Below, piece by piece: positions 10,509 through 63,060 of a stretch of 64,000 nt of DNA. The notes below the pieces were generated by a model. It did no database searches. It saw nothing but the letters and a program-made list of their open reading frames with translations, and was not told the origin of the DNA. Both the position numbers and the translations under genes were made by a program. How positions within the stretch are numbered: the stretch's first letter is position 1; each line of letters opens with the position of its first letter. This DNA comes from Isoetes taiwanensis (Eukaryota; Streptophyta; Lycopodiopsida; Isoetales; Isoetaceae), in NCBI GenBank assembly GCA_021234155.1, contig JAJEKV010000020.1:10594346-10658345 (forward strand). The letters run 5' to 3'.

Positions 10509-11572
10509 TTAAAACTTTGCCCCTCTAATTCTTCTTGCCAAATGAATATCTTTAGGCATTACGGTAACCCTCTTGGCATGAATAGCACAGAGGTTACCTT
10601 CTTCAAATAATTGAACTAGCGCCTCAAAAAGCTTCTTGCAAAGCACCTTAACCATGAAAGGTGTAACCGATAACTGCCTTGAATTCCTGCAACATCTCCC
10701 TTAGCAAATCGCCAAGGGTGCCTTATGTTATAAGGAGATTTGTGCACCGTTGAAAGTGCCGAATCCCCTAAACGCACCGAGCGCCAGTTTGGGTTTGGGC
10801 CGGTGTTTCCTCTTGGGATCTCTCGGGTGTGTGGTGGGGTGGCTTCGCTGATTTTTCTTGGGTGCCCCTTCAATCGTCCTTGAAAATTTCGTTTGCGTAC
10901 CATTCGTTGTATAGGTACCATCTACAAAGTAAATTTTATATCTTGTACTTCTTTCTTTTTTTCAAATTGGGCCATGACTTAATTTGAACGCCTTTTTCGC
11001 CCCGCTTTTGTTTCTTTTTTGCTCTTTTGTGCCTTGGGCCATGTTGGGTATGGTGGTGGGGCATTAGGGGTCCGGGGGTTCGGCCTCTCCTCATCTTCGA
11101 CCACGGGGGTCTTCCTCCTCTTCTTCTTCGGCCCTCCTCCTCTTGTTCCTCTATTGGTTCTTCATCCCTAGGGGTTCTTGGATATTAATTGTCCCCCTAG
11201 GCCTATCCCCGCCTCCTCTTTCGTCCCTCTCTCTTGCCTTCTCAATTCCTCCTCCCTTTCTTTTCTCTTTCTTTCCCTTCTTCTAGAGGCCCATTCGGAT
11301 ACTTTTTCCTTGCCTTTCTTGCTTATGGGTCTCATACCTTTTTTAGCATTTGCTTCCCACTGTTGTGGGTCTAGTGATTGCTTCTTCTTGCCCGTTCTTC
11401 TTCTTCCTCCCTGTTCTTCACTTTGATTCTTCCTCTTCTTCCTCACTTGTTTAGTTCTCCTCTTCTTCAACTACTTCCTCTTCTCGAGGGGTGGGTGGGC
11501 GTTCTTTTGGCTGCTAAGTGAATTTTACGCATAGGGGCCACAAACTCTGGCAGTGGATTTGGTTCTGGCCAT
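10509..11572 (-). pseudogene. broken copy of the histone H3-like ORF
   Basis: Aligns with the intact ORF at 58,831-59,904 from the start codon (11,570-11,572) to the stop (10,509-10,511). Several one- and two-base indels break the frame. Recognisable in-frame pieces are the basic segment with [16 protein letters not shown] and parts of the histone fold. Most differences from the intact copy sit at CG or CTG sites, so part of the damage could be assembly error rather than mutation. The 5' leader and primer-binding site follow on the right, as in the intact copy. Confidence 0.85.
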
Positions 11573-41750: not shown

Positions 41751-41755
41751 AGAAC
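41751..41755. other. target-site duplication AGAAC (left)
   Basis: Five bases identical to 62,059-62,063, directly outside the LTR borders of element A. Five bp is the usual duplication size for Ty3/gypsy integrases. Confidence 0.9.
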
Positions 41756-43345: not shown

Positions 43346-43356
43346 TTCTCCCTTAG
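43346..43356 (-). promoter_or_regulatory. polypurine tract of element A
   Basis: The minus strand reads CTAAGGGAGAA directly against the 3' LTR. It is the same type and position as the tract of element B. Confidence 0.85.
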
Positions 43357-44104
43357 AATAATGTTGTCCGCAAAGATTAAAGTAAGGTTTTTCTAACCTG
43401 CATAACTTATATACTTAATTATAATTAGATTGCATTTGTATATACATATAAAAAGAAACGATAACTTCCGATATATATGTTTCTACAACAGTAGCTTGGA
43501 AGAATATCCTTGCAAGCTTATACATAAGTATTTTCAAGTTTATTTATAACAAAACATTATGAATTGGACACATCAATTCATAATTTAAGTTTAAGAGTTT
43601 AAGTTATCTACAAAATTCTTAACTCCTAACTTCTCGTAATTCGCTCCCTCGTATTTGCTTGAATTCACTTCCCTGCAATGAGTAGTGCATTACGTTAGTT
43701 TAATTATAAATTGTGGTTTTAAGGGGACCACCCCTCTATTTATTTAGTATACCTTTTTCTAACTGCATACGATCATGGTCATACGGTTTAAGCTAAGAAT
43801 CATTTAAGATGATTCTATCATTGCCCATGATGGTAGCTACCTTGTGCATGATCTCCCCCCGTTGATCATGCACCCCACTGTGCTTCATGGTTTCTGGTTT
43901 AAGCTTAGGAACATGCAGTTGTATCCTTCATTGCCCATGATCACCTTTATTTTACATGACCCCCCTATGGTCATGTACACTTGCAGTGCGTAATGGCATA
44001 GAGAACGTCTTATGGATGATCTACTCTTTTCTAGACTTATCTAGAACACAATAATCTATACATTGTAATTATCATTGCTAACTACAAAGTATTCCCTCAC
44101 TTAT

Positions 44105-44689
44105 TTAATATATCACAGATTTTAACAATGGCAGACCTATATGTTCGATGTTGGCCATTTCAGAGATGACTTGGCCGTCGAATTGGTTCATAAATTCTGG
44201 GTATTGTCTTTCTAAATCTTGTTTCAATACCCAAGTTGCGTCTTCTACTGGCACGGGTGAAAGCATGCTAGGGTGTACCATCTAAAGTTCTTTTTAGGGA
44301 GTGCAAAACTACCCAGAAAAGTACCCAGCACTGGGTACTGGGAACTTGCATAAATGTCTCAATAAACAATAAGTTTGAGAGTTGATTCATTCATTTTAAT
44401 CTCTAATAGTATTGTGATCCTCTAATACTATAGATTAACATGTTACTGACCTTCAATTCAAAATTTTTGAATTGATTTTAATGTAAAGAAAAAACAGAAA
44501 GTACCAGTTTTAAAAGTACCCAGTATAGGTACTTTTGAGGGTTCCAAAAGTGGTACACCGTAGCATGCTTTCGCCCGCACGTGCTTCCATTTGACTAAGT
44601 ACTGAAGAAATTCCGATCTTCGTGTTTTCTTGAGTGCTTTGTCAAGGATAGTTTCAGGAACAATTTCAACATGCTCCTCTCTGTCATTT
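44105..44689 (-). pseudogene. chromodomain end of element A pol, split by a MITE
   Basis: Minus-strand translation from 44,689 gives EEHVEIVPETILDKALKKTR and FLQYLVKWKH, then after the MITE (44,576-44,255) VEDATWVLKQDLERQYPEF and a stop at 44,105. This is a C-terminal chromodomain, with the YLVKWKH...WVL aromatic framework of chromoviruses that bind methylated H3. Removing the MITE with one target copy restores the frame, and removing the L1 joins it to the pol ORF ending at 51,751. The ancestral polyprotein was therefore open through here. Confidence 0.85.
44255..44576. mobile_element. 322-bp MITE inside the chromodomain
   Basis: Terminal inverted repeats of 26 bp match at 24 positions (outer ends GGGTGAAAGCATGCTA and, inverted, GGGCGAAAGCATGCTA). 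They are flanked by the 4-bp direct repeat GCAC at 44,251-44,254 and 44,577-44,580. The interior has further inverted copies of AAAGTACC. There is no coding capacity. The 4-bp duplication and GGG start do not match hAT, Mutator, CACTA or Tc1/mariner; the superfamily is left open. Confidence 0.85.
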
Positions 44690-44929
44690 TTTTTTTTTTT
44701 TTTTTTGAGGGAAAGGAAGGATTATATTAATCATAACTTAAGTACATACAAAATAAGGCTCAAAGCCCATATCAGAGAAAATTAAATATAAACAAAATAA
44801 CCAATTGTCCATTGGCAACGAGAAAAGTCCGTCAAAACAGGGATCATCTTCCTGACCATATGCCGGATGGGGGAGACAGAGTTTTGGGAAACCGGTAGGG
44901 GATGTGGAAACACAGGGTAGGGGATAAGT

Positions 44930-46021
44930 TCAAGAGAGAATCCGGGATAGTGGGAAGATCGGGAAAAGAGTGTGTAGCATTAAGGGGGCATTGAAAAGCA
45001 AGGGGGCCATCCAATTAATCTCGGCCCGAGGGGGGTCAGCAGCCAAATAACTCTTCAATGGGTACACCGATAATATCCAATAACACACCAGTGCAGCCTC
45101 ACATCTGCCTTTATGGTAGTAATACATAGACCTTAAGCAAAGAACGCCTTTCGATAAAAGCGGTTGTTGGCTCCAATGAACTTGTGGAGAATGTGTGCAT
45201 TGTATGCTTCCTTCAAAGAAGAATTTAAGCCAAACGTAGCTCGACGGCGACGAGGCGCCCCGAATGGTGGGTAGGAACATCATCCCAGGGATTGATCCCT
45301 GAATACGAACCACACTTGTTCAAAAAGGCTGCAATCCACAAAGGCATTCAAGTCAATCGGAGAGTCGGAATGAATAGTAAAGAAAGTAGACTTGAAGGAG
45401 CCCCAATTCAACCAATCCGTATCAAACTTCTCCAATTTAAGGGCTTTATGAGCCATAGCACATCTAATAAGTTCAAATTGGAAATTGAGCTTCATCCAAT
45501 TAAGGTCACACTTCACGTTTTGCGAGCCACATTATTCCTATGTTTCCAAACAATCCGAGGGCTAGTTGTAGGACTGTACAATTGACACTTTGGAATCGAG
45601 CTGAAAGAATTGAGAAATATCGGTTATGGAATCGAAATCGAGGATTTTCAGGCCCCATCGAGTCAACCATCTCCAAAAGTCCTCGGATCCTTTGGCAAGT
45701 GAAAATGTGTAGCATGCATTCATCATGATTGTTCTGAGCTGGCAGAGGGCACTATGGGCAGGTCTTAAAGTTTCTCTTGATCATGTTAGTGTTACTTAGG
45801 ATAGCACTTTGTGGGGATGAGCCAAGAGAACACTTTTATCTTAGGGCAAGCATAGGATTTCGGCTAGATCGAGAATTTTCTTGAAATTCTTGGAAGATAA
45901 GCCACGAGAGAGGCATGCTTTTCGCTTTTACGGGAAGGCATGCATGGTAAATCTTAGATACTTTGTAGCTCCTTTTAACCTTGAAAAACCAATTAGGGGG
46001 GAGTGACTCTCCCCTTGCCAT
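44930..46021 (-). pseudogene. LINE ORF2 C-terminal region (zf-RVT-like)
   Basis: Pieces in several frames resemble the reverse-transcriptase zinc-binding tail of plant LINEs: KVSKIYHACLPVKAKS-like basic text near 45,920-45,960 and MLHIFTCQRIRGLLEM near 45,670-45,715. All frames are broken. Assignment relies on position between RT and the poly-A tail. Confidence 0.5.
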
Positions 46022-46363
46022 CTTTGCCTAAGAAAGGGGAGTAGGTGAGCACCACTTTCTTATAAATCGATCTGTGGTAGCACCCCTCCAACTTTCTTCT
46101 TAATCATTTCCCAAGGAATCAATTTTCCTCATCATCAATGAGGTCTTTGACATGCAAAATATTAGCAGAGTGCCATTTTTGTAACATGTAGGGTGACAGA
46201 TAGCCATAGCAGAGTAGGAGGGAGGGGCCATCACAGGGGACCCGAATATGGAAGTATCTCTCACTGAATTGGACAATTTGTCATGAGTAAAGTTAGCGAC
46301 CACTTTCTCCCATGCTTTAAAAGATACTTCTAAGGAGAGGAGAAGTATTAGCTGCATTTGAAC

Positions 46364-47990
46364 TCATAGAAAGCGAATGGAGCTGGTGCTTAGGGAGGGA
46401 CTTCCTAAGGGTTTACTTTTATTAATCCGGGAACCTAATAAAATCCATAGCGGAGATTGGAAACCGAGAGATGGCTTTCCACACATTTTATTTAAGCACT
46501 TGGGCTTGGAGAAATAAGGATTTACATCCCAAACCCCCGACTTTTTACTATGAGTCACCGATCCCAAGCGAAAGATGTGTACCTTGCCAAATATACTCTT
46601 TAATACATTGCTCAATTTTGTTATAGAAGCCTTGTCGACAATCAAAGCGAGAAGAGAAATAGACATGGCTACTAGCAAGGACGAGTTGGCAATCAAAATC
46701 ATCCCAACCCGAGACAAAAGAACCTTTAAGGAGGATAAGCTTTTTCCTGATCCTATTAATGTCGAGGTCGCCAAGCAATCTTATGGGACATGTGAACGCA
46801 AGGGGAGGCCTAAAAAGAGTCGGTATTGGCCATTAGGAACAAATTTGATGCCATGTGTATTAAAGTTGCGGATACGAGCCATCAACTAGGATGGAACATT
46901 TGGCAAAATTCGGTGGATCCCGAGGCAAACACTAAATTTAGAGATGCATCCATAAAATTCTTCATATTGTCGTTATCATTTCACGAGCATGGTAAAGGTA
47001 TCATCGATATTGAAGAATGGAAAGGCTGTTATTGAATTCGGGGCATTTGAAGGCCATGGAGCACACCCTTATCTTGGTAAGAGAGGGACCATTTTAGTAA
47101 AATTTCAGCAGCAATTATAAAGAGGTAGGGGAGCCGGGGGGCAGCCTTGTCTCACCCCTCTTTGAATGTGGAAAAACCAAAGAGGAGTCCCATTGACAAT
47201 AACACATGAAGTGGCTTTTGGTTTAATCCCATAATGAGCTTAGTGAGGGCAGGATGAATGCCAATATGGACCATGGCTTTCTCTAAGAATTTCCAAGAAA
47301 TGATCATAGGCCCTTAGAAGTCCGGCTTGGGGAGGATACCGGTTTTGTTTGGTCAATCTATTCCAGTCTGAGCCTCATTTGCAGCTATATAGTTATCCAA
47401 AATAGATCTGGCTGGAAGAAATGCATTGACAGGCATTCACTTTTCATGGAGGTGAACCAAAATTCTACCATTATAATCTTAGCTACAAGCTTGTATAAAG
47501 TTGTAGTCAAGGAGATGGGGCGCCATTCATTGGTTTTTAGAAGGGATTCAGTCTTAGGGATGAGGAGATAACTCCAACATTGAAGGTTGGATAAATAGTG
47601 CTTTAGCTCTCAAACCCCCGAACAAATTGGATGATGTCCTCCTTCATAATAGGCCAAAATTCCATAAAGAATTCGGGTTGAAAACCATCTATACCGGACT
47701 CTTTCCATGCTTCATTTTCTTAAGAGTTTCAAAGATTTCAGGAAGTTCAGGGACTTCAGTCAATCATCATCCATCATATCATTAGGAGGACCAATGATAT
47801 CAAAAGACTTCTGGATTTTACGATCTTCTATCAATTAAGTCTTTAAAAGATTAGTGTAAAATCAAGGAAGGCCGAGGCGATTTCCTTCTCATCGTAAGAG
47901 TGGAACCTTGTTGGATTCAATTTGGGTAATGGAGTTATTAACCAACTTGTTTCTAGCAATTCTAAGAAACATTTTAGAGCTCTCATGATC
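46364..47990 (-). pseudogene. LINE reverse transcriptase, broken
   Basis: On the minus strand near 47,140-47,160 the translation contains GVRQGCPP, the L1 RT block GVRQGCPLSP. Near 46,995-47,010 FNIDDT replaces the FADDT catalytic block (only the Asp pair is kept). Near 46,620-46,770 are thumb-like segments with GSFVSGWDD and IEQCIKEYIWQG. Frameshifts and stops occur throughout. Confidence 0.8.
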
Positions 47991-48006
47991 CAATTGATTG
48001 TACATC

Positions 48007-48615
48007 TTAATTTTTACTCCTAAGGGCCATCCCTTTAACACGGTGTTCTTCAAGAGCTTTGATCTGAATTTCTAATTGTTCCTCTCTCAAATGAAGAGAG
48101 TCATCCCTAGGATTGCCTTCAAGATCAGATCTAATATTCTTGATTTGTTCCAACAGTGGGACATTATAGCTTTCCTTTTCTCGAGCAAGGTCTTTTCCCC
48201 ATTGTTTCACCCAGGTCTTTGACTTTCTTCATTTTATCATTGAAGCACTTCATGGATTGGTGTTAGCCAATCTTGGGCAGAGAGGTAGAAAGAGGTGAAC
48301 TCTTGACAAAAAGACTTCATTTGGAGCAGAGGTGTTAAACTTGAAAGGGGTGTTCTTGCTCCTAGGGCCAATTTTCAGATCTTTAGTGTCAAGGAAGTGT
48401 GGTTGGTGATCTGAGATGGTGCTAGCTATATCTCCGGTAACAATACAGTTGTCTAACCAGCTAGCGTAATTATGGATATAAAATCGTCTCGCATCGCGAA
48501 GAATCTCGATCACCCTTTCTCTTGTTGCTCGGAGAATTTTAGTGTTAGAAGATGGGACATAGATAAGGTCTTGGTTGGACATCAATTGTCCCGAATATCT
48601 TTCATTAATGGACAT
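48007..48615 (-). pseudogene. LINE endonuclease, C-terminal part
   Basis: Minus-strand translation of 48,250-48,615 has WLDNCIVTGDIASTISDHQP. The SDHxP block is the conserved end of the apurinic-type endonuclease of L1 elements. The adjacent 48,007-48,210 piece (MKQWGKDLAREKESYN, LREEQLEIQIKALEE) is the helical linker between endonuclease and RT typical of plant L1. Confidence 0.8.
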
Positions 48616-51600
48616 GTTAATTTTGTTTTACCCAAGCTTCATATCCTTATGGGGGGCATTATTGAAGTCCCGGTAACCACCCGGTTCTCAATATCTTTGT
48701 GGCCGCTCATCCATTGTTGATTTCAAGCCACATGGGCTCTCTTTCATGGGGGTCAGTTGAGGCATAAATATTAATGAAGGCAACTTGGCGGTCCTTAATT
48801 TGGAGGGTGACGGTAAAGCCATTTGGAAGAGTGATGGTGTTGATTAACTACGGTTGACAATCCTGGTTGTCCCAATCGGTGCCATCAGGCTGGGATATAC
48901 CGAGGGAAAGCCATCCCGGATCGAATCCATTCACCCATTTGGAGTCAAATTTGGGGGAGTCTATGTTCTTGAATCATAATGATATCTGCTCCTTAGAAAT
49001 CTCTCCCAAGGCAATAAACCTTCTCCTTTTAGTGGGGCCTTTGATACCCCTCAAGTTCGGGTTAAGATCTCATGAGGGTAGGAGAAAAAGAACCAGAGGA
49101 GCCAGCAATAAGACTTAAAGACCATGAGGTGAGGCCTTGCCAGTATTATAAGTGTGAAGGTTCGGTGCTCCCGGGGACTTAGTTATGAAACCCGCCTTTC
49201 ATTTTCCTTTTTAAAGATCTAAGAGATGTATTGGTGATATCATGTAAGGGCGCTACTCATATCTTCCCTCTCCCAATCGGTACAATTAGATGCTGGTTGA
49301 CTCGGTCAAGGTTGTCCAAGGTGTCAAGGTTCAATTGCGAGCTTGCAGGCCATATTCAATACTCTCTTTCACCGGTTATGGTAGGTGGATTGGACAAAAT
49401 CACGGTCGGCAGAAAGGTAGGACTATCTTGTGTTGGGGATAAAGTCCTTTGTTGGTCTTGTGTTTGACTTGCTATCGGGAGTCAAGCCGTGTGCTCGCAA
49501 ACAAGGGAGTGATCACTTACCCGATTCGCTCCATCTCCTTATCTTCAATCGGCGCTTTGTCAAAAGACACTTTTCATCCACGGCTTGAGACAATCACTCA
49601 TCAGGGTCCACAAAGTGACTTTCCATACTTTTATAGAGTTCGAGGCAAAGGGGTATGGTGAGAAGGGGAGTGAGTTGACCAATGCAGAATGTGGTATGAT
49701 TGAGGGATCTACCGAGAGATCAACAAGATAGACCACGGAGGGAGGTGGGAGAGGTGGGAGAGGTGGGGGTAACCGTGTATGAGAGGTTGAAGAAAGTGAT
49801 CCCGTTCCTGGATGTGCAGATTGGTATTTGAGCCAACTTTGTATGTATCCATCCTTTCCTTGTGGTGTGAAGAGATCATTGAACTCCTCACCAAGATCAG
49901 TTGAAGAACCCCTCGTAGAATTTTGAATCTGTTACAAAAAGGAGAGGGGCGATGTCCCCTTATCGGTGAAGTTGACCGGTCTCCGCAGGCGCAGACCTGC
50001 TCAAGCAAATTGTGTTGCATATCTTCAGAGCATCATTGACCATGTGTTCCTTATCGGCCCGGTGTGTAGGTTGAGAAGAAGATGGAACTTCATCTTGTAT
50101 ACCACCATCCTCGGCTGATTATTGTGACTTTATCATATTGCACCTGTTGCGAGGTTTGTGCTATCAAAGGTTTAACCATGGTGGGGGGTTGAATGAAACA
50201 CCTTTAATGGTGACCCCTTTGTTTAAAACCTTCACAACCTTTAGCGGGAAAAAGAATTCAAATCATGGGGATTTGAGAGTCTCTTCAAGTTCCTTATTGG
50301 CTAAGGCAATCTTCTCATACAATGATTTGTCTCCTTGGGTGCCTAGCACTACCAAGTTAATGTTACCCCGCATTGCGATCGGTGCCGTGTTTCTCTGATT
50401 AGGGTAGCTTTGCTCCCGTCAGTGGTTGGGCGGGCATCGGGGAAGCACTTTCACCTCCCTCCATGCAAACGTTTCTGCGGATCGGACAAGCAGGAGGCAA
50501 CCCATTCCATCTTAAAAGCAAGGATTGGTCAGTCCCAAACGCATATCCCGGAAAGTCAATTCAAAGAAGGATAGGTTTGAGAAGATCCAATTGTATGAAT
50601 ACAGTGTAGAGGCCCTGGTCAGTGCAAGTTACATGTTGATATGAAGGAGCCAATAGGAGAAAAGATAGTTTTTAAGCATTGGGGCTCCCAAAAGAAATTT
50701 GGATTAAGATCATGCAGGTTAACATATCTTTGTGTGCATGAGAGTTGATGGCTTTAGAGGGTTAAAATGATAGGACCATTTCGAATTTAATTCTAAAGCC
50801 AAGATGAGTAAGGGTGCCCCCATCTTTAAGATGTGCTCAGCCCGACTTTGTTCAATGAGCATCTCGATCATGAAATATGGGAAACGAGTCCAATAGATGG
50901 CGCGTAGATTTGGATCGATTTAGATAAAGCACAAATTTGCTTGGACACATTCCCTAAAACAATACCTTCCTTTTTAGGCCCGACAAATGGCGGCATGCGA
51001 AAGAGAGAAATTCAAACCTTGAATGACAAAAGCTTCGGATTCAATTCCGCACCTCTGGGTGGCGGTAAGTCGGGTGGATTGTGCTTCTTCATGGTCGAGA
51101 ATGTCTTGTTTAATATCTTGTCTTCCTTAAAAGGTTGAGCTCTCGCATGAAAGTGTTGCTTGAACCGGCATTACGATTGGAGCATAGCAGTCGAGAAAGG
51201 TCTATCCCCGAAGGAAGATGGAAGAGCATTCTTTAGCGCCATCGGTTTAGCAACGAAGGTTGTGAATTCACCAAATTGAATCGGAACTATGTCTCCTTTG
51301 AAAGCAACAGTTGTTGGGCTAGAATTTCTTTACGTTCTTCAAAGATTTAAGGAGGAGAAGGTATTTAAGATGGAGCCCATCGGGGGAGATAATCCCGGGC
51401 CCGCTAGATCCGGTGGGACCATGATAACGAGAAAGATGCGAGGGAGTCTCAAAAAGCCGTGGAGAATTAAGATGATTGGAAGTGGAGAAAGGGGAAAGTT
51501 GGCAAAAGGCGGAGGGTACAAAGCGAATTATCTTGAGGAGATGAAAATGACTTCCCCGAGGGGCGATGGGACCCAAAAATCCTAGATCTAAAAGATGTAA

Positions 51601-51750
51601 TGTAGATTACCTTACCGCTTACCTCGATTTACCTCGATTCTGAAGTCGATCCGCGATCGAACCCTAGTTAGGGTTAAGCATGACCATGGTAGCGCTCCAG
51701 CCTCCTTTCGATGTAGAAAAACCTATCGGACAAAGCGCTCCCTTGCATAT

Positions 51751-54700
51751 TCTGTCATTTCCAATAAAGTTGGAGTCTCCAAAATCTCTTCCGGATTTGG
51801 GGTATGCCTCTTAAGCAGACTAACGTGGAAGACTTTATGAACCTTTAGATGAGCGGGTAAGTCTAATCTGTAGGATTGATTTCCAACTCTCTCAATAATT
51901 TTAAATGGTCCTGCCCATCTTGGTGCCAATTTCTTGCAATTTCCAATTCTGAGCTTGGCTTGCTTAACTTTGATCTTTAGCCATACGCTATCTCCAACTT
52001 GAAATTCTCTCACTGTTCTATGCTTATCTGCTAAGCTCTTTTGACGGCTTCTAGCTGCTATCAAATATTCTCGAACTTCTTGCACTAGCTCTTGCATATC
52101 TTCTAGCATTTGTTGAGAGACTTCAACTTTTGACACCGGATTATGCCACGTGTCAGGTGTGAGACATTGGTATCCATAATTAATCATGAACGGGGACATC
52201 TGTGATGATTCTTGCTTGGTACTATTGTATGCAAATTCTACCAAGTATATGTAGTCCTCCCATTTCGTCTGTTTGTTCCACACGTAATGTCTCAACATAT
52301 CTTCCAAAATTCTGTTTGTTCTTTCTGTTTGACCATCTGTTTGAGGATGATAAGTTGTACTCATACAAAGCTTTGTTCCGATGGTTCCAAAGAAGTCCTT
52401 CCAAAATGCACTTATAAATTTCGGATCTCTATCCGATATTATTCCTCTAGGCATACCATGAAGTCTGAAAATTTCTTTAGTGAAGAGCAAGGCTGTATCT
52501 AGGGCAGTGTCTGTTGTTTTACATGGCAAGAAATGTGCCATCTTTGAAAGTTTATCGACTACTACCATGAGTGCGTCATGCCCCCTTGCTGTTCTTGGGA
52601 GGCCCGTGATGAAATCCATACTCACTATTTCCCACTTGGCATCTGGAACTGCCAATGGCTCTAGGGCTCCAGGAATGCGAAGTTGTTTGGCCTTGGTTTG
52701 TTGACATAATTGACATTGCCGAATGTAATTGGCAATGTCCTTCTTCATACCTGGCCAGAAGTAACTACTTCTTATTTTAAAGTAAGTTTTCATAAAGCCT
52801 GCATGACCTGCGATTGGGCCATTGTGAGTATCATTGAGAATCAATTTTCTCACTCCTGATGCTTCTGGGACACACAATTTGTCCTTATGATAAAGAAGCT
52901 TGCCTTCCTTCTTATAATTCTTAAAAAGTTCCCTTTCCTTGTTTGTCCTTGCATCCTTGCAAAGGCTTGCCCAAACCTGTTGGAACTCCACACTAGAGGG
53001 TATTGCCTCCTCAATTTTCCTGCCGAATTCACTTGACAAAGTTGATATGGCATTGCAGTGTGTTCTTGTGACTATTGGTCTGCGAGAGAGAGCATCAGCA
53101 ACTACATTCAATTTGCCGGGCTTATAGACTATATCAAAGTCATATTCTTCTAAAAACTCCATCCACCTTCTTTGTCTCAAATTTAGAAGTGGTTGTGTGA
53201 ATATGTATTGCAAACTCTGATGATCTGTGTCTAATTGGAACTTCTTTCCTAACAAGTAATGTCTCCAAATGCGTAGTGCCCTCACTACTGCCAATAGTTC
53301 TTGATCATGAGTCGGATATCGTTGTTCTGCTTCATTCATCTTCTTTGAATCATATGCAACTACCCTTCCTTCCTGCATAAGTACCCCGCCTGTGGCAATC
53401 ATGCTTGCATCAGTTGCTACAAGTTTATCTTTTTCTGGGTCAGGTAAGGTTAGAACTGGAGCTATTGTCAAGGCTTCTTTGAGCTTATCAAAAGAAACTT
53501 GTACTTCTTGCATCCAATTGTCCATCCAGTTCTTTACCTTCTGTTTCTTTGTGAGGTCTGTCAAAGGAGTTGCCCACTTAGCAAAGTCCTTTACAAATTT
53601 TCTGTAGTATCCTGCAAGACCCAGGAAACTTCTTACTTCAGGGACGTTTCTTGGTGCTGGCCAATCTATGATGGCTTCTATTTTTGCTGGATCTGTTGCA
53701 ATGCCTTCTGCTGATACAATATGCCCCAAGTAATCAACTTTGGGGGTGGCAAAGTGACACTTGGAAAATTTGGCAAATAGCTTATGCCTTCTTAGCTTCT
53801 GTAATGCTTTTCTCAGGTGGTGATCATGTTCTTCGATTGACTTACTATAAATGAGGATGTCGTCGAAGAATACTATTACAAAATCATCCAAGAACTCTCT
53901 GAAAATTTCATTCATCAACCTCATGAACGTTGCTGGTGCATTTGATAGGCCAAAGGGCATAACTGTAAATTCATAATGACCATAGCGTGTTCTGAAAGCT
54001 GTTTTATGAACATCTTCTTTTTTTATTCTTATTTGGTGGTACCCTGACCTTAAGTCTATTTTGGAGAATATCTTTGCCCCTTGAAGTTGATCCATTAGAT
54101 CATCTGCCCTTGGTAATGCGTATTTATTCTTTACCGTTTGTTTATTTAGTTGTCGGTAATCTATACACATTCTTAGACTTCCATCTTTCTTCTTCACGAA
54201 GAGAATAGGTGCCCCAAAGGGTGATACACTTGGTCTTATAAAACCAATTTCCAACAACTCCTTCAACTGTTTCTTGAGCTCTCCCAGTTCCGGTGTGCTC
54301 ATCCTGTAGGGAGCCTTGCTAGTAGGCTTAGCATCTGGTGCTAGAGTAACCTCACATTCCACACCTCTATAGGGTGGTAGCTCTCGGATATCATCCGAAA
54401 AAACATCATAGAATTCTCTTATGATTTTAGCAATAGGCTTAGGCAATTTTTCTATGCTTTCCTCCTGTGTTATTTTCTCACTATCAGGTTGAATTGCTTC
54501 TAGCCTAAGGATATATTCGATCTCCTTCTTTAAATTGCATTTATTCAACTGGCTTAAAGTTATACACTGCATTACTGAAGGAATTTCCTTACCTCTGACC
54601 ACTATTCGTTTGCCATCTGGTGCGGTGATTGCTATTTCTTTATTGTCGCAGTCAATGATTGCCTTAGCTGGTTTGAGGAATTCCATTCCAACTATCAAGT

Positions 54701-55103
54701 CATATTTGCCAATATCCATTACCTCAGCTCCCATGGTGAACTTAATTCCGGTCAATCCGACGTCGAAATTAACTCTTCTTCCCTTTGTATGTCGAATTGC
54801 CCCATTTGCCATGCTGACTGGTCTGGGTTTAGATTTCAGGGTCTTTGACTTCAATAATGCTGCCAGTCTAGGAGATGCAAAATTGTGTGAACTACCTGTG
54901 TCTATTAGAATTACATATGGTTTATCATCTATTATAGCATCAGTTGAGATGACCGTGGACTGACTTGCAACATTATCAGTCTCAATAGCTGCACAAATCT
55001 TACACTCACCATCTATGTAATCTTGGGCTTCCTCCTGATCATCATCTTCATCTTGTTCAGTAGGTGATTCCCATCCATCTAGCTCTGCTAAGGTTGCCTG
55101 CAT
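51751..55103 (-). CDS. pol polyprotein of element A: protease, RT, RNase H, integrase
   Basis: An open frame of about 1,120 codons before the L1 insertion. The first Met (55,103) is not a true start: the frame continues from gag. Residues counted from it: protease [12 protein letters not shown] at 66-77; RT about 290-455 with FFDDIL at 412-417; RNase H about 560-680 with TDAS and TDHQS. Integrase has its zinc-binding residues at H760, H767, C797 and C800 and the catalytic triad at D830, D891 and E927. A GPY/F-type region lies near 1,070. All catalytic residues are present. The L1 replaces the end, giving a short unrelated tail; the chromodomain lies beyond, at 44.1-44.7 kb. The intact frame suggests recent insertion. 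Confidence 0.95.
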
Positions 55104-56395
55104 GACGAAAGGACATGTATGTGTTCTGTGGCCCAGTTGGAAACATTTGAAACAGAGTTGTTTCTTGATGCATTCATCCCCCTTTTCTCTTGGAATACTG
55201 TCTAGGAAGCTTTTGATTGACCTGCCAGATGAAGACCCTTGAGCTGCCTGATTTCTATATGGTCCTTTCCTTTCATTCTTCCCTTGAAACTGTTGGTTAG
55301 CAGGTTGATTTCCCTGCTGCCTTGGAGTGTATGGAGCTATTGACTTGTCCTTTGAATAGTTGCTTTTTTTGGCCCGTGTGTTTGTGGAGTTTCTTCCAAA
55401 CTTAAGGCTTTATCCTCGGCTTTCCCCTAACCGTTTTTGGGTTTATGGCCCGCACAAGTCTCTTGATGTTGGGGTTTAGTCCTTCAATGTAACCATCTAC
55501 GGCTTGCCTTTCTGTTATTGTTGGCACATTTAATCGTAGCCTCATGAACTCTTCTGTATATTTGGCTACGGTTAAGTTTCTTTGATCCAACCTATAAAAT
55601 TGTTGAATCTGCCTGCTTGTATGTGATCGAGGTACATAGTGCTTGCGAAATGCTTTACTGAAAGTTTTGAACTTACAATTGTTTCTTTTCAGTCTATTAG
55701 ATTTTGCATATCCCTTCCACCATATTCGGCTGGACCATTCAAATTTGTTTACGTTGCTACCTTTCCTATGTCCTTATCCTTCATCCCATAGGAGTTGCCA
55801 AATTCTTCCATCTCATCAAGCCATGCTTCTGCTTCCATGCCGGATCTGTCCTTTCCAGAGAACTGCCCCAGTTTCCTTGTTTTCCAGACATTGCTCATAG
55901 CAATATCTATTTTCTTCTGGTAATCCTCCGCTCGACGTACCGTTCCTCCTCTTCGATGTCTGTTCCTATCATTAGAACTACCGGACTTCGGTCGAAAGTC
56001 TATTGTCACTAGTCGCACTGATGTGGTGTTGTCTGCACTTGAGCTTGAAGGAGTTACACTTCTCCTATGTCTTTTCTTTCTCTTTTTCTCCTTTGGAGCC
56101 TCCGGTGGTGGATTCTGCCCTTGGTGAACTTGTTGATCAACTCCTGGGACTTGTTGTGGTAGGGGTGGACACTCCTGGTTTTGCATCAATGGTGTTGCCC
56201 AGTTGACTATTCGTGTCATTTGATTTCTCATGCGCACTAATCGTCGGTTTATAGCTTCGGATGACATGTCATCCTCGACTGCTTCATCATTGTCATGGCC
56301 AAATAAGTTCCTTGGCAACCAGTTTCGTTGTCGGTTTTGAAATTCTTGTTCCTGAGGTGGTAAGCCGAATGTTCCAGCTGCAAGATTTTATCATA
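55104..56395 (-). pseudogene. gag of element A
   Basis: The minus-strand frame opens near 56,395 just after a splice-acceptor-like ATCTTGCAG. It gives FGLPPQEQEF, a basic linker (KEKKRKKRHRRS), then the gag core with GMEAEAWLDEMEEF near 55,800. A frameshift near 55,750 leads into the remaining core (NLTVAKYTEEFMRLR, near 55,540-55,580). After further frameshifts, a CCHC zinc knuckle ([14 protein letters not shown]) lies just upstream of pol at 55,110-55,150. The knuckle is intact. Two or three frameshifts separate it from the core; they may be mutations or sequencing errors. Confidence 0.85.
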
Positions 56396-56619
56396 TACAT
56401 TGTTTATGCAATATTCCTTGGTGTTATGATATTGTTATCTTACTTCAAATAAACCATAAAGATTTTTAAAATAGAAGATGATTTATATACTCATAAGATA
56501 ACTTTTCTATTCAAAACACGAGTACATAAAATTATAATATTATCTTTAAAAAGTAAATACTTGGCATAATTTTAAGAAAAGCTAAACATGAAATTGCTAA
56601 TCTATTCCTTGGAGCTGGA
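56396..56619 (-). other. AT-rich spacer between ORF2 and gag, possible intron end
   Basis: About 220 AT-rich bases without ORF, ending in a good acceptor (pyrimidine-poor but with TTGCAG) at the start of the gag frame. It may be the 3' part of an intron that removes the upstream ORFs from a gag-pol mRNA. Confidence 0.35.
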
Positions 56620-58137
56620 TCATGTCTTGGATTTGAAGAAATCCTTGATGTGCTTGAGTCTAAGGCCTTTGCCCGCATTTCTCAGGATATTTCGTGCCGA
56701 TCCTCCTTCTAGGGCTTGCTGCATCTGTGGTGCTGGGAGTTCCGGTGCCGTAGCTGCTACAACTGTCAGTGGTCCATCTCGCATGTGGCCCCGGGCGAAG
56801 TCTAGACTATAGAGAGCTACCGATCTTTTAATGAAAATGATATGATCGATATTTTCTCTTATTTTGGCATGTTGCCCGAAACCTGTGAGTGCCATGAGCA
56901 ATGCTACTGCTTCTTCCCCTCTGGGGCTAAATTCTTTGTGAAAAACTAATATTTGGCCTTGACACAGGGCTGGGAGATAGTATCTCAAGGCCTTGCCTTT
57001 TTGATGCCCCTTTGGTGCCTTTCCTTTGCCTGTTCCTTTTCTTGCTGCTGCTGATCCCACTATATCAAGTGCTAAGAGATCATCATGGTCTCTCATCATT
57101 GTCGCCGCGTTTTCAAGATTGATGGTGTTTCTCTCCCTGACACTTGATGATCTCTTGGGTTGACTCGCGCTAGGTCCCCTGCCTGGTTTATACAAGGTGC
57201 TTTGAATTGCTTGGAATTCTTCTTCTGATATAACGGGTTCATTTTGCTTATAGTAGTCCCTTATGTATTGATAGGCCTCAATATCGGACATTGTTTCACC
57301 CGTATAAGAGTGATACTCTGCTACTTCACGAGGAATCTTCTGATAAGAATAGTCAATGAGGTCATGCTGCTGTCCTTCTGAGATTATACCTAGGAGTTCA
57401 TCAATCCTCATGCCTTGTTCCAATGAATAAGGTAGATGCAATATGTCATTTGCAAGGAGATATTCTTCTCCTTCGACAATGATTGGAGACAAGGCAGTGA
57501 TACCTATTGGTGGCGGGTTTGATTTTAGCACCCGTTCCTCGTTCATAGTGATTTGCCTTTCCCATTTTTCGGCGTATCTCGCTTCCTCTTCTTCATCTAG
57601 CTCACTAGTTTCTTCATAATCTTCCTGCAGTTTGAGTATTCCATGTGATGTGCCTTGGGTCACGTACTCGGTCGTGTCGAGTTCGAGGATGTCATCTTGA
57701 TTTACCCTTGTATTCAAGGGTGCAAGGTCTAGGGGCTGAACTGAAGGTTCCCCTACCTGATTGATGGCGTTAAATTGCATAAAAATTGCAAGTGTTGCTT
57801 GCGCTAAAACATGCCTATGCTTTTGAGCTGTACATCTCATATAATCTGGCATGTTGCTTGTTCTTTCCCATATTTGTTTCTTGATTTTTGATGTATTGCC
57901 CAATACTCTGGAGAGTACTTCCAATGAAACCCACTTTCCTGCTCTGGGTGGAATGTCAACTTCCCATGACAATATCTGTTGATCATACTGGATCATTATC
58001 TCTGTGTAGAATGGTGTTCTTGTTAGTGTTGCATACAGATCAAATGTATGATTGAACACCTCAAAGGCCTGCTGTATGGGTACTTCTCCCTTGTGGTCGG
58101 AGCTATTATACCATTCGATGAAGTTGGTGGGCGCCAT
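56620..58137 (-). CDS. element A ORF2, unknown protein of about 505 residues
   Basis: The open frame runs from 58,179, but the Met at 58,137 (MAPTNFIEWYNSSD) is the better start because the 14 codons before it look like untranslated sequence. Visible features are an N-terminal alpha-helical globular part (about residues 10-150), a very acidic middle (EETSELDEEEEARYAEKWE, about 190-210), and a basic Lys/Gly stretch (KGTGKGKAPKGHQKGKA, about 380-400). A second globular part with hydrophobic strands follows, ending in a basic tail (HIKDFFKSKT). I see no catalytic motif, no signal peptide and no zinc finger. I do not recognise the family. Its intact length and position between the H3-like ORF and gag suggest a functional accessory protein of the element. 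Confidence 0.7.
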   Translation of the reverse strand: MAPTNFIEWYNSSDHKGEVPIQQAFEVFNHTFDLYATLTRTPFYTEIMIQYDQQILSWEVDIPPRAGKWVSLEVLSRVLGNTSKIKKQIWERTSNMPDYMRCTAQKHRHVLAQATLAIFMQFNAINQVGEPSVQPLDLAPLNTRVNQDDILELDTTEYVTQGTSHGILKLQEDYEETSELDEEEEARYAEKWERQITMNEERVLKSNPPPIGITALSPIIVEGEEYLLANDILHLPYSLEQGMRIDELLGIISEGQQHDLIDYSYQKIPREVAEYHSYTGETMSDIEAYQYIRDYYKQNEPVISEEEFQAIQSTLYKPGRGPSASQPKRSSSVRERNTINLENAATMMRDHDDLLALDIVGSAAARKGTGKGKAPKGHQKGKALRYYLPALCQGQILVFHKEFSPRGEEAVALLMALTGFGQHAKIRENIDHIIFIKRSVALYSLDFARGHMRDGPLTVVAATAPELPAPQMQQALEGGSARNILRNAGKGLRLKHIKDFFKSKT

Positions 58138-58439
58138 TAGAGCAAGGTAGATGTAAAAGACGGTTTGATAAAATAGCAAAAGGCCTGAAAAATCGCCTAA
58201 AGGGGTAGGAGCTATCTTTGAGAGGAAAAAAAATAGAAAATGACCCTCCTTTTATAGAGGTTAGGGTTTCTAGTTTTTCGTGCCAATCATAATTGTTTAG
58301 AAAAATCTAAGTTTCATGAGCTAGAACTTACCAATCTAAGAGATATGAAATGCTAACATAGTTAGAATAAGGCAGAAAACATACTAATTTATTTTATTTC
58401 AGTTAATTTGGGCATCTTTTTGATCAACTCGGGCTATTT

Positions 58440-58502
58440 CGGTTACACCGCGCGAAAGGGGTTTCTAAGCCCCTTAGAAGGCGGTTTGGCGCGGTGTGAC
58501 CG
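58440..58502 (-). other. inter-ORF hairpin with pseudoknot-capable core, copy 1
   Basis: Outer arms CGGTTACACCGCGC and GCGCGGTGTGACCG pair over 14 positions with one mismatch. In the core, GGGG (58,458-58,461) can pair with CCCC (58,470-58,473), and TTCTAA inside that loop can pair with TTAGAA (58,474-58,479) just outside it, which is an H-type pseudoknot layout. It lies between the H3-like ORF and ORF2. Confidence 0.7.
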
Positions 58503-58641
58503 AATTTGGGTCAACTTTATTTCCATAATGACGATTTTTATAATAAAACATACTAACTTGTGTTTCTTTCCTATTTTTAGCCAACCTAGCATGTTTATTT
58601 ATAAAAAAATTAACTTATTTGACTCTGAATTTATCCTGTTT

Positions 58642-58704
58642 CGGTTACACCGCGCGAAAGGGGTTTCTGAGCCCCTCAGAAGGCGGTTTGGCGCGGTGTG
58701 ACCG
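58642..58704 (-). other. inter-ORF hairpin with pseudoknot-capable core, copy 2
   Basis: Direct repeat of copy 1, 202 bp away, with identical outer arms and GGGG/CCCC. The second stem is TTCTGA (58,665-58,670) with TCAGAA (58,676-58,681): one A-T pair of copy 1 has become G-C on both sides, a compensatory change. Confidence 0.75.
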
Positions 58705-58830
58705 AATTTTGACTTTTTGGCGCCGTTGACTTTATTAACTCCGATATTTATTAATTTTAAAAAGTAGTACAACCTCTATATAACACCCTGGAGTCAAAAT
58801 TTACAAAATTTTTAGACAATTATATGCTAT

Positions 58831-59904
58831 TTAAAACTTTGCCCCTCTAATTCTTCTTGCCAAATGAATATCTTTAGGCATTACGGTAACCCTCTTGGCA
58901 TGAATAGCACAGAGGTTACCTTCTTCAAATAATTGAACTAGCTCTGCCTCAAAAGCTTCTTGCAAAGCACGAACCATGAAAGGTGTAACCCGATAATCTG
59001 TCTTGAATTCCTGCAACACCTCCCTTAGCAACCGCTCGAAGGGTGCCTTGCGTATAAGGAGATTTGTGCACTGTTGAAAGTGCCGAATCTCCCTAAACGC
59101 ACGGGAGCGCTTCGAGTTTGGGCCGTGGTGTTTCCTCTTGGGCTCTCTGGGGTGTGGTGGGGGTGGCTTCGGCTGATTTTTCTTGGGTCTGCCCCCCTTC
59201 ACCGTCCTTGGAAAATTCTGTTTGCAGTACCATTCATTGTATAGGTACCATCGGCGAAAGTAAATTTTATATGCCGCCTTCTTTCTTTCAAATTGGGCGT
59301 CATGACTTAATTTGAACGCCCTTTCGCCCGGCTTTTGTTTCTTTTTGCTCTTTTGTGCCTTGGGCCATGTTGGGTATGGTGGTGGGGCATTAGGGTCGGA
59401 GGGTTCGGCCTCATCTCCTGATCTTTCGACCACGGGGTCTTCCTCCTCTTCTTCTTCAACGTCCTCCTCTTGTTCCTCTATTGGTTCTTCATCCCTAGGG
59501 GGTTCTTGGATATTAATTGTCCCCCTAGGCCTATCCTGCCTCCTCTTCGTCCTCCTCTCTTGCCTTCTCAATTCCTCCTCCCTTTCTTTTCTCTTTCTTT
59601 CCCTTCTTTCTGAGGCCCATTCGGATACTTTTTCCTTGCCTTTCTTGCTTATGGGTCTCATACCTTTTGGCAGCTGCTTCCCACCTGTTGTGGGTCTAGT
59701 GATTGCTTCTTCTTCGGCCCGTTCTTCTTCGACCTCCTGTTCTTCACTTGATTCTTCCTCTTCTTCCTCACTTGTTTCGTTCTCCTCTTCTTCAACTACT
59801 TCCTCTTCTCGAGGGGGTGGGTGGGCAGCTGCTGCTTGAGCGGCTAAGTGAATTTGTTCTGCATAGGGGCCACAAACTCTGGCAGTGGATTTGGTTCTGG
59901 CCAT
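58831..59904 (-). CDS. histone H3-like protein with long N-terminal insertion (element A ORF1)
   Basis: 357 residues, against about 136 for canonical H3. Residues 270-357 are an H3 histone fold, with [33 protein letters not shown] and [20 protein letters not shown] lining up without gaps with alphaN to alphaC of H3. The loop-1 length is that of H3, not centromeric CENH3. The N-terminus MARTKSTAR matches H3 residues 1-9 except Q5S; K9 and S10 are then replaced (V, C). A Glu-rich block follows (about 33-67), then TTGGKQLPK (72-80, like STGGKAPRK of H3), a basic helix (90-122), a second acidic block (138-168), and an aromatic/basic region (200-262). It lies 540 bp inside the 5' LTR, in the element's sense. 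The likely role is a nucleosome- or capsid-associated chromatin mimic (inference). Confidence 0.9.
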
Positions 59905-60427
59905 GTTTTTTATCTCAGAAAACGGACGTTGATTGGCTATAGAACTGCTTACTAAGAAAAAGGAACTTAAGAGGTTTTTTTAGGGTTCTTTTTCTTAATC
60001 TGAGTTTAAAAAGTAGTTAGTGGGGGATCATGGGGGAATATTCCTTTTTTCATTATGGTGGAATTTATTGAGCCCCCTTTCATTAATATCCCTCCCTAAA
60101 TTTAATTTTTCGCATTTTCTTGGTTGGAAAATTATGAACCTTCGCCATTTTTCACTGGGATCTCAGAATTTAAAAATTCTTTGACCCTTTTTAGGTGGAA
60201 TTTGATGTAGATGCATAATTTTCTCCCCAATCTTACTAGAATGTTCATTCGACTACATCTCTATTAGAATTTAATTTGACTCTAGGACCCTCCTATTGGG
60301 GAAAAAAATTTCTCCCCACTTTACGAAGTCCAAGGTTGGAATTTTTCATTTCCTACCTTTTTCTAGGTCAATTAGTCTACTAAAACAGGGATATGGTCAG
60401 TGCTAGTTCTTGGTCAACCAAGAACAT

Positions 60428-60440
60428 GGCTCTGATACCA
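60428..60440 (-). promoter_or_regulatory. primer-binding site (initiator-Met tRNA)
   Basis: The minus strand reads TGGTATCAGAGCC one base after the 5' LTR end, complementary to the 3' end of plant initiator-Met tRNA, the usual primer of plant Ty3/gypsy elements. Confidence 0.95.
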
Positions 60441-60441
60441 T

Positions 60442-62058
60442 TGTGACGCTCCCCGCACAATATACGGTAACCACCGTACACTCCACGGAAAATCCCCCAA
60501 CCAGTGTCGTCTACTGGATGGGCCCTCCATCTATCCCGTTCTAGGGATGGCTAGAACGGTAAGGGACACGGAGGTGTCTCGTAAATCCGTCCCCTATGGA
60601 CTCCTAATAACAGCGGAAGCATATAACTAAATGTCAGTACTAGCAACCAACAACAATAATAATAAGTCTACCTCGAAGGGTAGCTCAATCTATCCATCCA
60701 TAGAATCGTCAGAAGGATCAATACACCATAAAACAATAAAGCTTCTACCCAAGCTCTGACTCGTGGGGAAAAGTATACTGACGGCTAGGTCTCAAGATAG
60801 ATACAGACGGAAGTATAAACAATGGCGGGGCTGGCTATAAGACAATGGCTAAGGGTTGACCACTCCATCCGCCCCTCCTGTGCATACTTTGCAGATGGGC
60901 TAAAACGAGCTATAGTATGACTGTAGCCCCCGGATACGCAATCTCTTGGATTCACCCTAAGAGACTACTCCAGGTTTCATCTCCCTGGTCCGATGAGGCA
61001 AGGTCGGGTTACATCTCCCCTTCCCGGAAATCAGTGATTCGATGGGCGACTAGAGGATCGTGGCGACACACGTCCGTTCACGTCTTTAACCCCCCAAAAG
61101 CAAAGAACCAGGCTGGCACCTGCAGCTCTTCAGGATCAGGGCGGCACCATTGATCCAGGAGGTGACGAACCCATGCCTGGCCCACGCGAAGTGACCGACC
61201 ATAGGCCTAGTGCGCCCCAAGTCCCCAGTAGCCGCGCTCAGCAGGGACTATTCCTCCATCTTGTCACTGATCCCGTTATGTGGTGCTCAGTCATTCCATA
61301 ACTCCCTTAGTCCGGTGGGCTCTATGCACAGGCCGCATATAATAGGTATTATGGGTCTATCTAGAAGCATCATACATAAGACTGCTAGGTCTCTACCCCC
61401 CCTTCCCAATACATGAGGAGCATAACAAGAGATCAACCATATCATATCCATAACATATGAACAATAAGAATAAGATCTAACCTAATCACATGAATCTAAC
61501 TACAGAGTTAGGGTTCGTTGATTCGGTTCATCAGTTGAAATAGTGGTTCTAGGAAGGCTCTACTAGAATACATGACTCTACTACATCTCTATAGCTGAAA
61601 CTGCTTCAAAATATCTGCTCCTGATGCATTTCCTCCTGATCCTGGGGTATCCATCGATTCTTCGATGTTTGAGATTATTGCTACTGAATCCAACACGTCC
61701 ACGCTGCTTGGGTCGCTAAACCGCTATGTCTGCAGCTTTCCGATCTTGATTCTCGAACTCCCATGACAATAGCCTCAAGAGTGGGAGGAGCAAAAATGTG
61801 TTCTGGTTTAGGGTTAGGTATTTATAGGCAAATTAGGGTTAGGGTTGACACCTTGTCCAATGGGATGCGAACACGTGGCCAGTTACCCCAATCAGGTAGT
61901 GCCACGTGGATATATCCTTTCCTAAGGTTAATCAAGTTACATTTTAATGTGACTTGAACTTATGTAATTGTCATACAAATCTAAGTGATACTGGATTTGT
62001 ATGGTGACGTGGCCCAAAATATACGTATACATACCGTATATTTTAGGGGAACGTCACA
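60442..62058 (-). mobile_element. 5' LTR of element A
   Basis: 1,617 bp between TGTGACGCTCCCC and GGGGAACGTCACA. With the TATA box at 61,819-61,826, U3 is only about 260 bp and R plus U5 about 1.35 kb, unusually long. It is followed inward by the primer-binding site and outward by the AGAAC target duplication. Confidence 0.95.
61790..61910 (-). promoter_or_regulatory. LTR core promoter: G-boxes, TATA box, telo-box-like motifs
   Basis: On the minus strand there are two CACGTG G-boxes (61,903-61,908 and 61,872-61,877), a CCATTGGAC CAAT-like site, CCCTAACCCTAA at about 61,834-61,845, the TATA box TATAAATA at 61,819-61,826, and CCTAACCCTAAA just downstream. Order and spacing suit a plant Pol II promoter with transcription starting near 61,790. 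The TATA and telo-box-like motifs are kept in all three LTR copies. Confidence 0.7.
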
Positions 62059-63060
62059 AGAACTGTCCGCCGGCTAAAATGAAAGTGGTTGCATCTAACA
62101 TAGCAATTTTATGTGCAACTAACTCTAAAATGAGTAGCCGCTTAGTGGATCTTTATGGCAGGTAATAACCTGGTTGTAACCGAGCTGTATTTGTTGCTAT
62201 TCCTTGTCTCTAATGTTAATCTTAATCTAATCCAGGTGCTTGTATGAGACATTGCCTTTCGAGTGGAAGAGCAAAATCTTTTTTATCCCCCCATACAACT
62301 ATATAAGGTTTAGAGAAGCTACCAAAGAAAGAAAAGAAAGGGTGAATCAAATTTGAGGATCACCGAATGTCATTGAAATAGTGAAATCGTGGGATGAAGG
62401 GGATTGTGGTAGCTAAATGCCATCATATCCTTGCACCTATCCTGAGAATGAACATTTTGTCTTGGTCGTTTTACGCCGCACCATCTCGATTCCAAGATCC
62501 TACCCCGCACTGAATTCACGCCTTGAATCCTCTTATGGTGTTATCGACGAACCAGAAAGCAATCAAAGGGTATGTAATACTTTTAAGTTGTTGCTTTGCT
62601 TTTCTTCGCTAATTGGCCCCAAGCTAAATTTCTCGGATATGTAGGCTGATACAAAAAATGTTAACCACATCGATCGGTCAAGTATCTAGAGGCGTCGATT
62701 TCATGAAGAGAAATAATGTTAATCGGATTCAGCAAGTAGAGGTGCCACAGCAGCCCGATTTAACATCATGTGGGTTGTATGTGATGGGATTTATGCACAA
62801 ATATGTTGAAGCTCTTGTCTCTGGTAGAGATATGGAAGTAAGTTGTATGCCTTCCCTTGTATGTACTGCATCTCATGTTCCTTTAAATATTTCTAACCTT
62901 ATTTATGGATGTCACAGATTACATCTAAATGGTTCTCTCATGAATACGCCCTGTCACGACGACAATTTCTAATAGATGCTTTGGTCATGCATTGTGATGC
63001 CAATCCGAAAGAACGTATCAGCCAGCAGTCCTCTGATTTCTGAGCTGATCATGAGTCTGA
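62059..63060 (+). pseudogene. ULP1-like (C48) cysteine protease gene, catalytic part
   Basis: ULP1/SENP peptidases process SUMO or related tags. The first exon piece (to 62,161) ends LVDLYGR at a GT donor. The next (from 62,236 after AATCCAG) continues in phase with CLYETLPFEWKSK. The His block (ENEHFVLVVL) is near 62,446-62,470. The Cys block QQPDLTSCGLYVMGF has its Cys codon at 62,769-62,771. A donor at 62,838 and an acceptor ending at 62,917 lead to ITSKWFSHEYA and then FLIDALVMHCDANP. Small indels break the frame between the first and second blocks. With the exons at 38.7-41.75 kb it forms one gene interrupted by element A. It may itself be transposon-borne, since ULP1 domains are common in plant MULEs. 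Confidence 0.7.

Follow-up and report, generated by a model that had tools for sequence, protein, structure and literature searches.

A histone H3-like protein encoded by Ty3/gypsy retrotransposons in the genome of Isoetes taiwanensis

A 64,000-nucleotide stretch of the Isoetes taiwanensis genome (hereafter the window) contains an open reading frame (ORF) for a histone H3-like protein that lies inside an LTR retrotransposon. This location raises the question of whether the ORF is a host histone fragment carried along by chance or a gene of the element and, if the latter, what a retrotransposon could gain from a histone of its own. The initial annotation of the window attributed the ORF to the capture of H3 by a Ty3/gypsy element. 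This proposal is supported because the ORF is found at the same position in other copies, evolves in a non-neutral manner and significantly matches an H3 profile; the product is almost certainly an element-encoded H3 variant maintained by selection.

The H3-like ORF and the element that carries it

The 357-codon frame reported originally was recovered on the minus strand, from ATG to stop. The C-terminal part of its product is a core histone domain (Pfam PF00125, residues 241-353) with a highly significant profile match (E 1.3e-30), and H3 chains from the PDB match it with E-values down to 5.1e-33 (best stretch 246-356); as proposed, the fold aligns to H3 without gaps, and the similarity is specific to H3. 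The resemblance of the first nine residues to the H3 tail was found as well, with eight of the nine identical (MARTKSTAR compared to MARTKQTAR in H3). Acidic, basic and proline-rich sequence of about 250 residues separates the tail start from the fold. More generally, the element-encoded H3-like proteins are 355-412 aa long, that is, about 220-280 residues longer than H3 (~136 residues), owing to this charged and proline-rich sequence. The H3 tail is recognizable only over the first 5-10 residues rather than over its full extent with K4, K9, K14, K18, K23, K27 and K36, and, except for the tail start, the 265-320 residues that precede the fold are orphan sequence.

No relative spanning the N-terminal region of the ORF was found among the best 120 of 2495 protein-database matches, and the six matches examined whole (P0001, P0002, P0003, P0013, P0028 and P0042) are H3 repeats, in one case with H2A. 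Neither ORF2, the next gene of the element, nor the N-terminal part of the family C proteins described below has a protein-database match at E<=0.001; transposable element proteins are under-represented in such databases, so that these missing matches are weak evidence. A full-ORF alignment with the repeat proteins was judged misleading and set aside before folding. The structure model of the H3-like protein reached a pLDDT of 49.5 from the single sequence and 56.9 with 34 H3-repeat proteins aligned, and the Foldseek matches of the model are H3 chains with TM 0.33-0.49 and rmsd >10 (best 50 rows); being poor, this model adds little and is no proof of the fold.

The H3-like ORF is the first gene of an element with the order LTR-PBS-H3-ORF2-gag-pol. 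The features of the window are as follows:

41756..62058, minus strand: whole LTR retrotransposon, a Ty3/gypsy chromovirus of family A with a nested insertion (LTR pair, target-site duplication, Pfam domains)
62059..62063, no strand: target-site duplication AGAAC, outside the 5' LTR (sequence)
60442..62058, minus strand: 5' LTR, TGTGACG...CGTCACA as read on the plus strand (LTR comparison)
60429..60440, minus strand: primer-binding site (PBS) TGGTATCAGAGC, directly inside the 5' LTR (position 7936 of copy L009 = window 60440)
58831..59904, minus strand (59904 to 58831, ATG to stop): H3-like ORF, 357 aa
58637..58704, minus strand: conserved hairpin 1, between the H3 ORF and ORF2 (z -5.1)
58441..58508, minus strand: conserved hairpin 2, near-identical to hairpin 1 and ~200 bp further on (z -5.9)
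56620..58134, minus strand: ORF2 ('ORF505'), 504 aa, orphan, between the H3-like ORF and gag (families A and B, distant relative in C)
55104..56382, minus strand: gag region, frame broken in the window copy (in copy L013, a single frame from gag to the protease part of pol)
51723..55103, minus strand: pol, 1126-aa frame with protease, reverse transcriptase, RNase H and integrase (Pfam; end lost to the nested insertion)
about 44690..51750, no strand: nested insertion of ~7 kb in the chromodomain end of pol (comparison with L027, L011 and L010)
44577..44689, minus strand: displaced piece of the integrase chromodomain, past the insertion (copy comparison)
41756..43345, minus strand: 3' LTR (LTR comparison)
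41751..41755, no strand: target-site duplication AGAAC, outside the 3' LTR (sequence)
10509..11572, minus strand: second copy of the H3-like ORF, with many small indels (in the duplicated block 10219-15629)

The LTR pair (K2P 0.10) and the AGAAC repeats on both sides bear out the matched LTRs and the 5-bp target-site duplication described originally; the three other LTR pairs measured are younger (K2P over LTR parts of 0.014 in L027, across 724 bases, 0.043 in L011 and 0.051 in L025). The PBS, of the initiator-Met tRNA type, lies directly inward of the 5' LTR; the reported placement of the H3-like ORF between PBS and gag has to be amended, given that the 504-aa ORF2 intervenes before gag. The description of pol as near-complete is accurate for the protease, reverse transcriptase, RNase H and integrase (RVP_2 40-162, RVT_1 303-463, RT_RNaseH 555-654, Integrase_H2C2 751-805 and rve 825-920 of the pol frame, with the rve match slightly below its cut-off) and not for the end of the gene, which is missing because the ~7 kb insertion splits the chromodomain. 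The uninterrupted pol end of copy L027 contains a chromodomain (PF00385 Chromo, 2.8e-10), which identifies the element as a chromovirus; by eye, the same holds for L011. A further pol, broken and from a related element, is present in the window (32039-35416, minus strand), with a protein ~76% identical over the main part.

No Pfam match was detected in the broken gag piece of the window, by which alone family A gag was represented; in a family C copy (L049), the gag capsid is recognizable (Ty3_capsid 1.1e-16, Retrotrans_gag 5.4e-16), with a zinc knuckle under the cut-off. As judged by eye, the gag frame (56382, minus strand) has no nearby ATG at its start and begins just past a TTGCAG that resembles a splice acceptor and is preceded by an AT-rich stretch, so that gag-pol may be expressed by splicing.

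One role that could be envisaged for the H3-like protein, basic and acidic as it is, is the packaging of RNA or cDNA in virus-like particles, and its position as the first ORF of the genomic RNA as well as its highly charged insert are compatible with this possibility. However, the normal gag capsid is retained in the family C copy, and the DNA-contact and H3-H3' residues of the histone fold are conserved (see below), so we consider a particle protein very unlikely.

Copies, families and gene order across the genome

The genome search covered 1,658,258,908 bases in 1110 contigs. The ORF query yielded at least 114 matches, comprising, among the matches listed, 24 with at least 78% identity and 90 with 59-71%; 77 of the 114 listed matches lack an internal stop and 37 contain one. 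A canonical H3 query retrieved 15 host H3 genes (96-98% identity) and at least 135 further H3-like loci, of which, among the matches listed, 129 of 135 have no stop in the match, 49 of these 129 with open frames of at least 400 aa. The 135 loci and the 114 ORF matches do not overlap, and none are within 5 kb of each other. The 28474 and 9022 first-look candidates (ORF and canonical H3 queries, respectively) are not copy counts. Six host H3 genes (L052-L057) encode glutamate at position 77, where nine distinct H3 folds of other organisms have aspartate.

The copies read, a minority of the loci, were assigned to families A, B, C and D. Family A is that of the window, and family B is ~60-70% identical to it. 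Family C consists of five full frames from the canonical H3 search, with a fold 86-88% identical to that of host H3 (two compared). Type D is represented by one copy (L017, minus strand, ~1208-2482), an open frame of 425 codons that starts with MMARTKQTTRK and lies ~0.65 kb inside the PBS of another element; its fold shares 52 of 92 residues with host H3 and has some CENH3-like residues.

Other copies display the same gene order. Among 10-kb stretches at 20 family A loci, chosen by their H3 match, the H3-like ORF is followed by ORF2 in 18, by gag in 15 and by pol in 15, and an LTR match is located on the expected side in 17. Selection free of H3, with ORF2 as the query, produced 86 rows, including 17 family-A-like loci (76-100% identity), 16 of which have a listed H3 match 0.5-1.3 kb upstream; this comparison used 42 of the 114 H3 rows. 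In the exceptional locus, the contig of which is absent from all 114 rows, the ORF2 match starts only at residue 100. The presence of the ORF at the same position in other copies, a check that the initial annotation had proposed, thus holds for the 20 family A loci and for 16 of the 17 loci chosen through ORF2. Family-B-like ORF2 sequences account for 68 of the 86 rows, and the 15 compared all have H3 upstream, which is no rate because these rows were chosen for sharing contigs with listed H3 rows.

Both flanked family C loci (L049 and L050) possess the PBS, the H3-like ORF and ORF2, along with gag in L049 and pol in L050. The one flanked family B locus (L051, a locus also listed as L032 and treated as one) includes an LTR-like sequence, H3, ORF2 and gag; an exact PBS match was not found at this locus. 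The ORF2 proteins of families A and C show a distant relationship (25% identity, E 2e-14 in pairwise BLASTP). The order shared by diverged families indicates that the 5' module of H3 and ORF2 is an old property of the lineage.

The second H3-like ORF of the window belongs to a 5.4-kb block (10219-15629) that is 91% identical to 58538-63998 and encompasses the H3 ORF, the LTR and the host flank, with clustered small indels. An independent insertion was ruled out at this site given that the flank past the LTR is duplicated too, and the block is either a segmental duplication or a duplicated, poor-quality assembly. The clustered small indels that separate copies resemble long-read errors, and some 'broken' copies may therefore be intact; the genome paper describes, in the excerpted text, an assembly of nanopore origin (PMC8566536).

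The two hairpins between the H3 ORF and ORF2, ~66-70 nt each and stable, are both present in 18 of the 20 family A loci, one with a partial second copy; of the exceptions, L025 has one hairpin and L017 a fragment. Across 22 rows from 11 loci, 96% of the cells pair, compared to 24-45% when slid. Double-sided changes affect nine cells (a value matched by 0 of 500 shuffles), at three pairs (reached in 38 of 500 shuffles), and pair types are no more numerous than in shuffles (385/500); with such mixed statistics, the case for compensatory changes is moderate. The hairpins may serve in RNA packaging, keep the H3 transcript apart from the downstream ones, or act as a DNA element.

Selection on the H3-like ORF

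The many broken copies, with a stop in 37 of the 114 listed matches and small indels in most of the 19 other family A loci, could suggest that the ORF is a transduced host H3 fragment that hitch-hikes passively, without a role for the element. The dN/dS ratios of the whole ORF (NG86 counts, intact frames) are 0.143 in family A (6 copies, 15 pairs), 0.130 in family B (16 copies, 120 pairs) and 0.121 in family C (5 copies, 10 pairs), and those of the fold alone are 0.057, 0.074 and 0.031, respectively; the sample (6 of the 20 A loci, 16 of the 20 B ORF loci and all 5 C loci) consists of intact frames ranked by protein similarity, a choice that lowers dN and biases these values toward constraint. 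When the 19 other family A loci are compared to the window ORF with the broken ones included, the mismatches at codon positions 1, 2 and 3 number 211, 243 and 995. The neutral evolution considered in the initial annotation is not what is observed. Between families and against host H3, the synonymous sites are saturated (pS 0.83-0.92), with fold dN of 0.12-0.35.

The low dN/dS, the excess at third positions, the same place in diverged families and the saturated synonymous sites between families all argue against passive hitch-hiking, which appears extremely improbable and, for the lineage as a whole, can be regarded as already refuted by the present sequence comparisons. The copies read clearly evolved under strong purifying selection, and such selection combined with genome-wide recurrence implies that the ORF is not a chance occurrence.

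Changes found in two or more copies were classed as shared and taken to represent a spreading lineage. The synonymous to nonsynonymous counts are 33:3 for shared and 51:29 for singleton changes in family A (ratios of 0.024 vs 0.151), and 73:7 vs 7:11 in family B (0.027 vs 0.441). This tighter constraint on shared changes in families A and B is what selection on transmitted elements, with relaxation once they have inserted, would be expected to produce. No such contrast is seen in family C (0.078 for shared vs 0.056 for singleton changes).

Possible roles and comparison with known systems

Residues were compared with host H3 in 27 intact copies (6 A, 16 B and 5 C). R63, R69, R72, K115, R116, T118 and K122 on the DNA side and H113, A114, D123, L126, R129 and I130 on the H3-H3' side are identical to the host in all 27, and R49, R83 and C110 in 26 each; the assignment of these positions to DNA contact and the H3-H3' interface follows the general organization of the nucleosome. 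In families A and B, K56 is replaced by Q or M, and residues 86-90, which distinguish H3 variants and bear on chaperones (see also PMC9145170), are altered, so that host chaperones may not load the protein. The start MA[R/S/I/N]TK is present in 25 of the 27 copies, two of the 16 B copies having no H3-like start, and K4 is the sole tail lysine common to these 25. K9 is found in those 14 B copies that start like H3 and is lost in A and C, and the K14-K36 segment of the H3 tail is replaced in the element proteins.

Phenylalanine at position 54 in all three families (Y54 in the host) and proline at position 135 in B and C (F in A, A135 in the host) hint at a common capture. The fold phylogeny with the host H3 genes that the initial annotation called for was built, and it is compatible with one or two captures (key node 56.7/76).

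The explanation that we favour on balance, judging from these sequence features, is that the captured H3 acts with host H4 for the benefit of the element, perhaps in resisting silencing, a purpose that we infer. Under this explanation, a histone H3 gene, once captured by a chromodomain Ty3/gypsy lineage, has remained its first gene, between the PBS and ORF2. The H3-like protein would pair with host H4 to form tetrasomes or nucleosomes on the element's behalf, possibly on newly made cDNA, on the newly integrated copy or on other host chromatin, and the remodelled tail could make such chromatin hard to silence. Assembly with H4 into chromatin seems likely, and the conserved DNA side, H3' side and first tail residues fit a protein that still works as the H3 partner of H4. 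A function of the protein in resisting silencing or in marking the DNA of the element itself is a tentative suggestion motivated by the tail, with K4 kept in all families, the K14-K36 segment replaced and K9 lost in A and C; K9 in the 14 B copies speaks against the simple idea that the element cannot be silenced at K9. The large orphan region before the fold could dominate the role of the protein. It is conceivable, if doubtful, that the H3 variant with its rebuilt tail is the element's own nucleosome component, marking element DNA as its own chromatin in a long host-element co-evolution; such chromatin might, with equal doubt, be resistant to silencing or be recognized by the group II chromodomain integrase of the element.

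The main rivals to the favoured chromatin assembly are a decoy and integration targeting. A decoy would titrate H4 or histone chaperones, or else the proteins that read and write the H3 tail, causing derepression of elements without entering chromatin. The tail mimicry and large insert, the altered residues 86-90 and the multicopy source are compatible with this role, but a decoy would not need the DNA-contact residues R63, R69, R72, R83, K115, R116 and K122, which are conserved, making it unlikely.

Integration targeting implies that the deposited or tethered H3 variant is a ligand of the integrase chromodomain, so that the element would create its own landing sites. The lineage is a chromovirus, the H3-like protein retains the start of the H3 tail, and the chromodomain, compared by eye with HP1, appears to lack the first and third aromatic cage residues, as in group II. 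However, the chromodomain integrases of other elements work without an element-encoded H3, and we regard this role as quite unlikely. According to PMC6317226 and PMC12786077, group II chromodomains have no known partner. The H3-like protein is a candidate for this part.

Histones are among the most conserved proteins, and a histone as a retrotransposon accessory protein places a genomic parasite directly inside nucleosome biology. Selection has kept the H3 gene of the element working, and the element probably uses it to shape the surrounding chromatin. A testable question is whether an element can alter its own silencing via a histone variant instead of blocking an enzyme. The series of diverged H3 proteins additionally separates retained residues, required for chromatin, from lost ones, which perhaps serve host regulation.

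In line with the novelty initially claimed for this ORF among plant retroelement accessory genes, no histone-encoding LTR retrotransposon was found in a search of titles and abstract starts of the open-licence literature, and the word 'histone' is absent from the main text of the Isoetes taiwanensis genome paper (PMC8566536). The Isoetes element resembles plant chromoviruses in its LTRs, PBS, the order protease-RT-RNase H-integrase, the chromodomain and, judging from the family C capsid, gag; unlike them, it has the H3-like ORF, the orphan ORF2 and the paired hairpins upstream of gag. Like CENH3, the element proteins are diverged forms of H3 with a different N-terminal tail, and families A and B have a small number of residues in common with it (IRHFQ, NLLI). 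In contrast to CENH3, the folds of families A-C align with host H3 without gaps and lack the longer loop 1, which in Arabidopsis CENH3 contains two extra residues compared to H3.

Single H3 proteins of viruses (Xenomavirus, DSLPV1 and others) are similar in that the selfish genome contributes just one core histone, highly similar in fold, which would depend on host partners, and the H4 of bracoviruses, whose tail is extended, is incorporated into host nucleosomes, as described in PMC9145170; these carriers, however, are DNA viruses and a wasp polydnavirus, and no retroelement is found among them, the term 'retro' having no match in that paper.

The closest precedents found are AlkB in orchid gypsy elements and H3 in fungal hAT transposons. 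In Phalaenopsis, a plant Ty3/gypsy lineage likewise captured a host-type epigenetic gene that became fixed as an additional ORF, but this gene encodes an m6A RNA demethylase rather than a histone; that study screened 121 angiosperm genomes, and its main text contains the word 'histone' twice, neither time as a found domain (PMC9289625). The hAT DNA transposons of Dothideomycete fungi carry H3 (H3L in Pyrenophora tritici-repentis, and also in Pseudocercospora fijiensis), so that here, too, H3 was captured by a mobile element and amplified to tens or hundreds of copies (PMC3538342, PMC6710886, in part). Those elements are DNA transposons with terminal inverted repeats (TIRs) and, in P. fijiensis, an 8-bp target-site duplication, and their copies either are of recent origin and closely alike or have been inactivated by RIP. 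Identity with these transposons was rejected for the Isoetes element, which has reverse transcriptase, integrase and LTRs instead of TIRs and a hAT transposase. The Isoetes element further differs from the fungal hAT-H3 transposons in its diverged families, saturated synonymous sites and purifying selection, and in a protein that exceeds H3 by ~220-280 aa.
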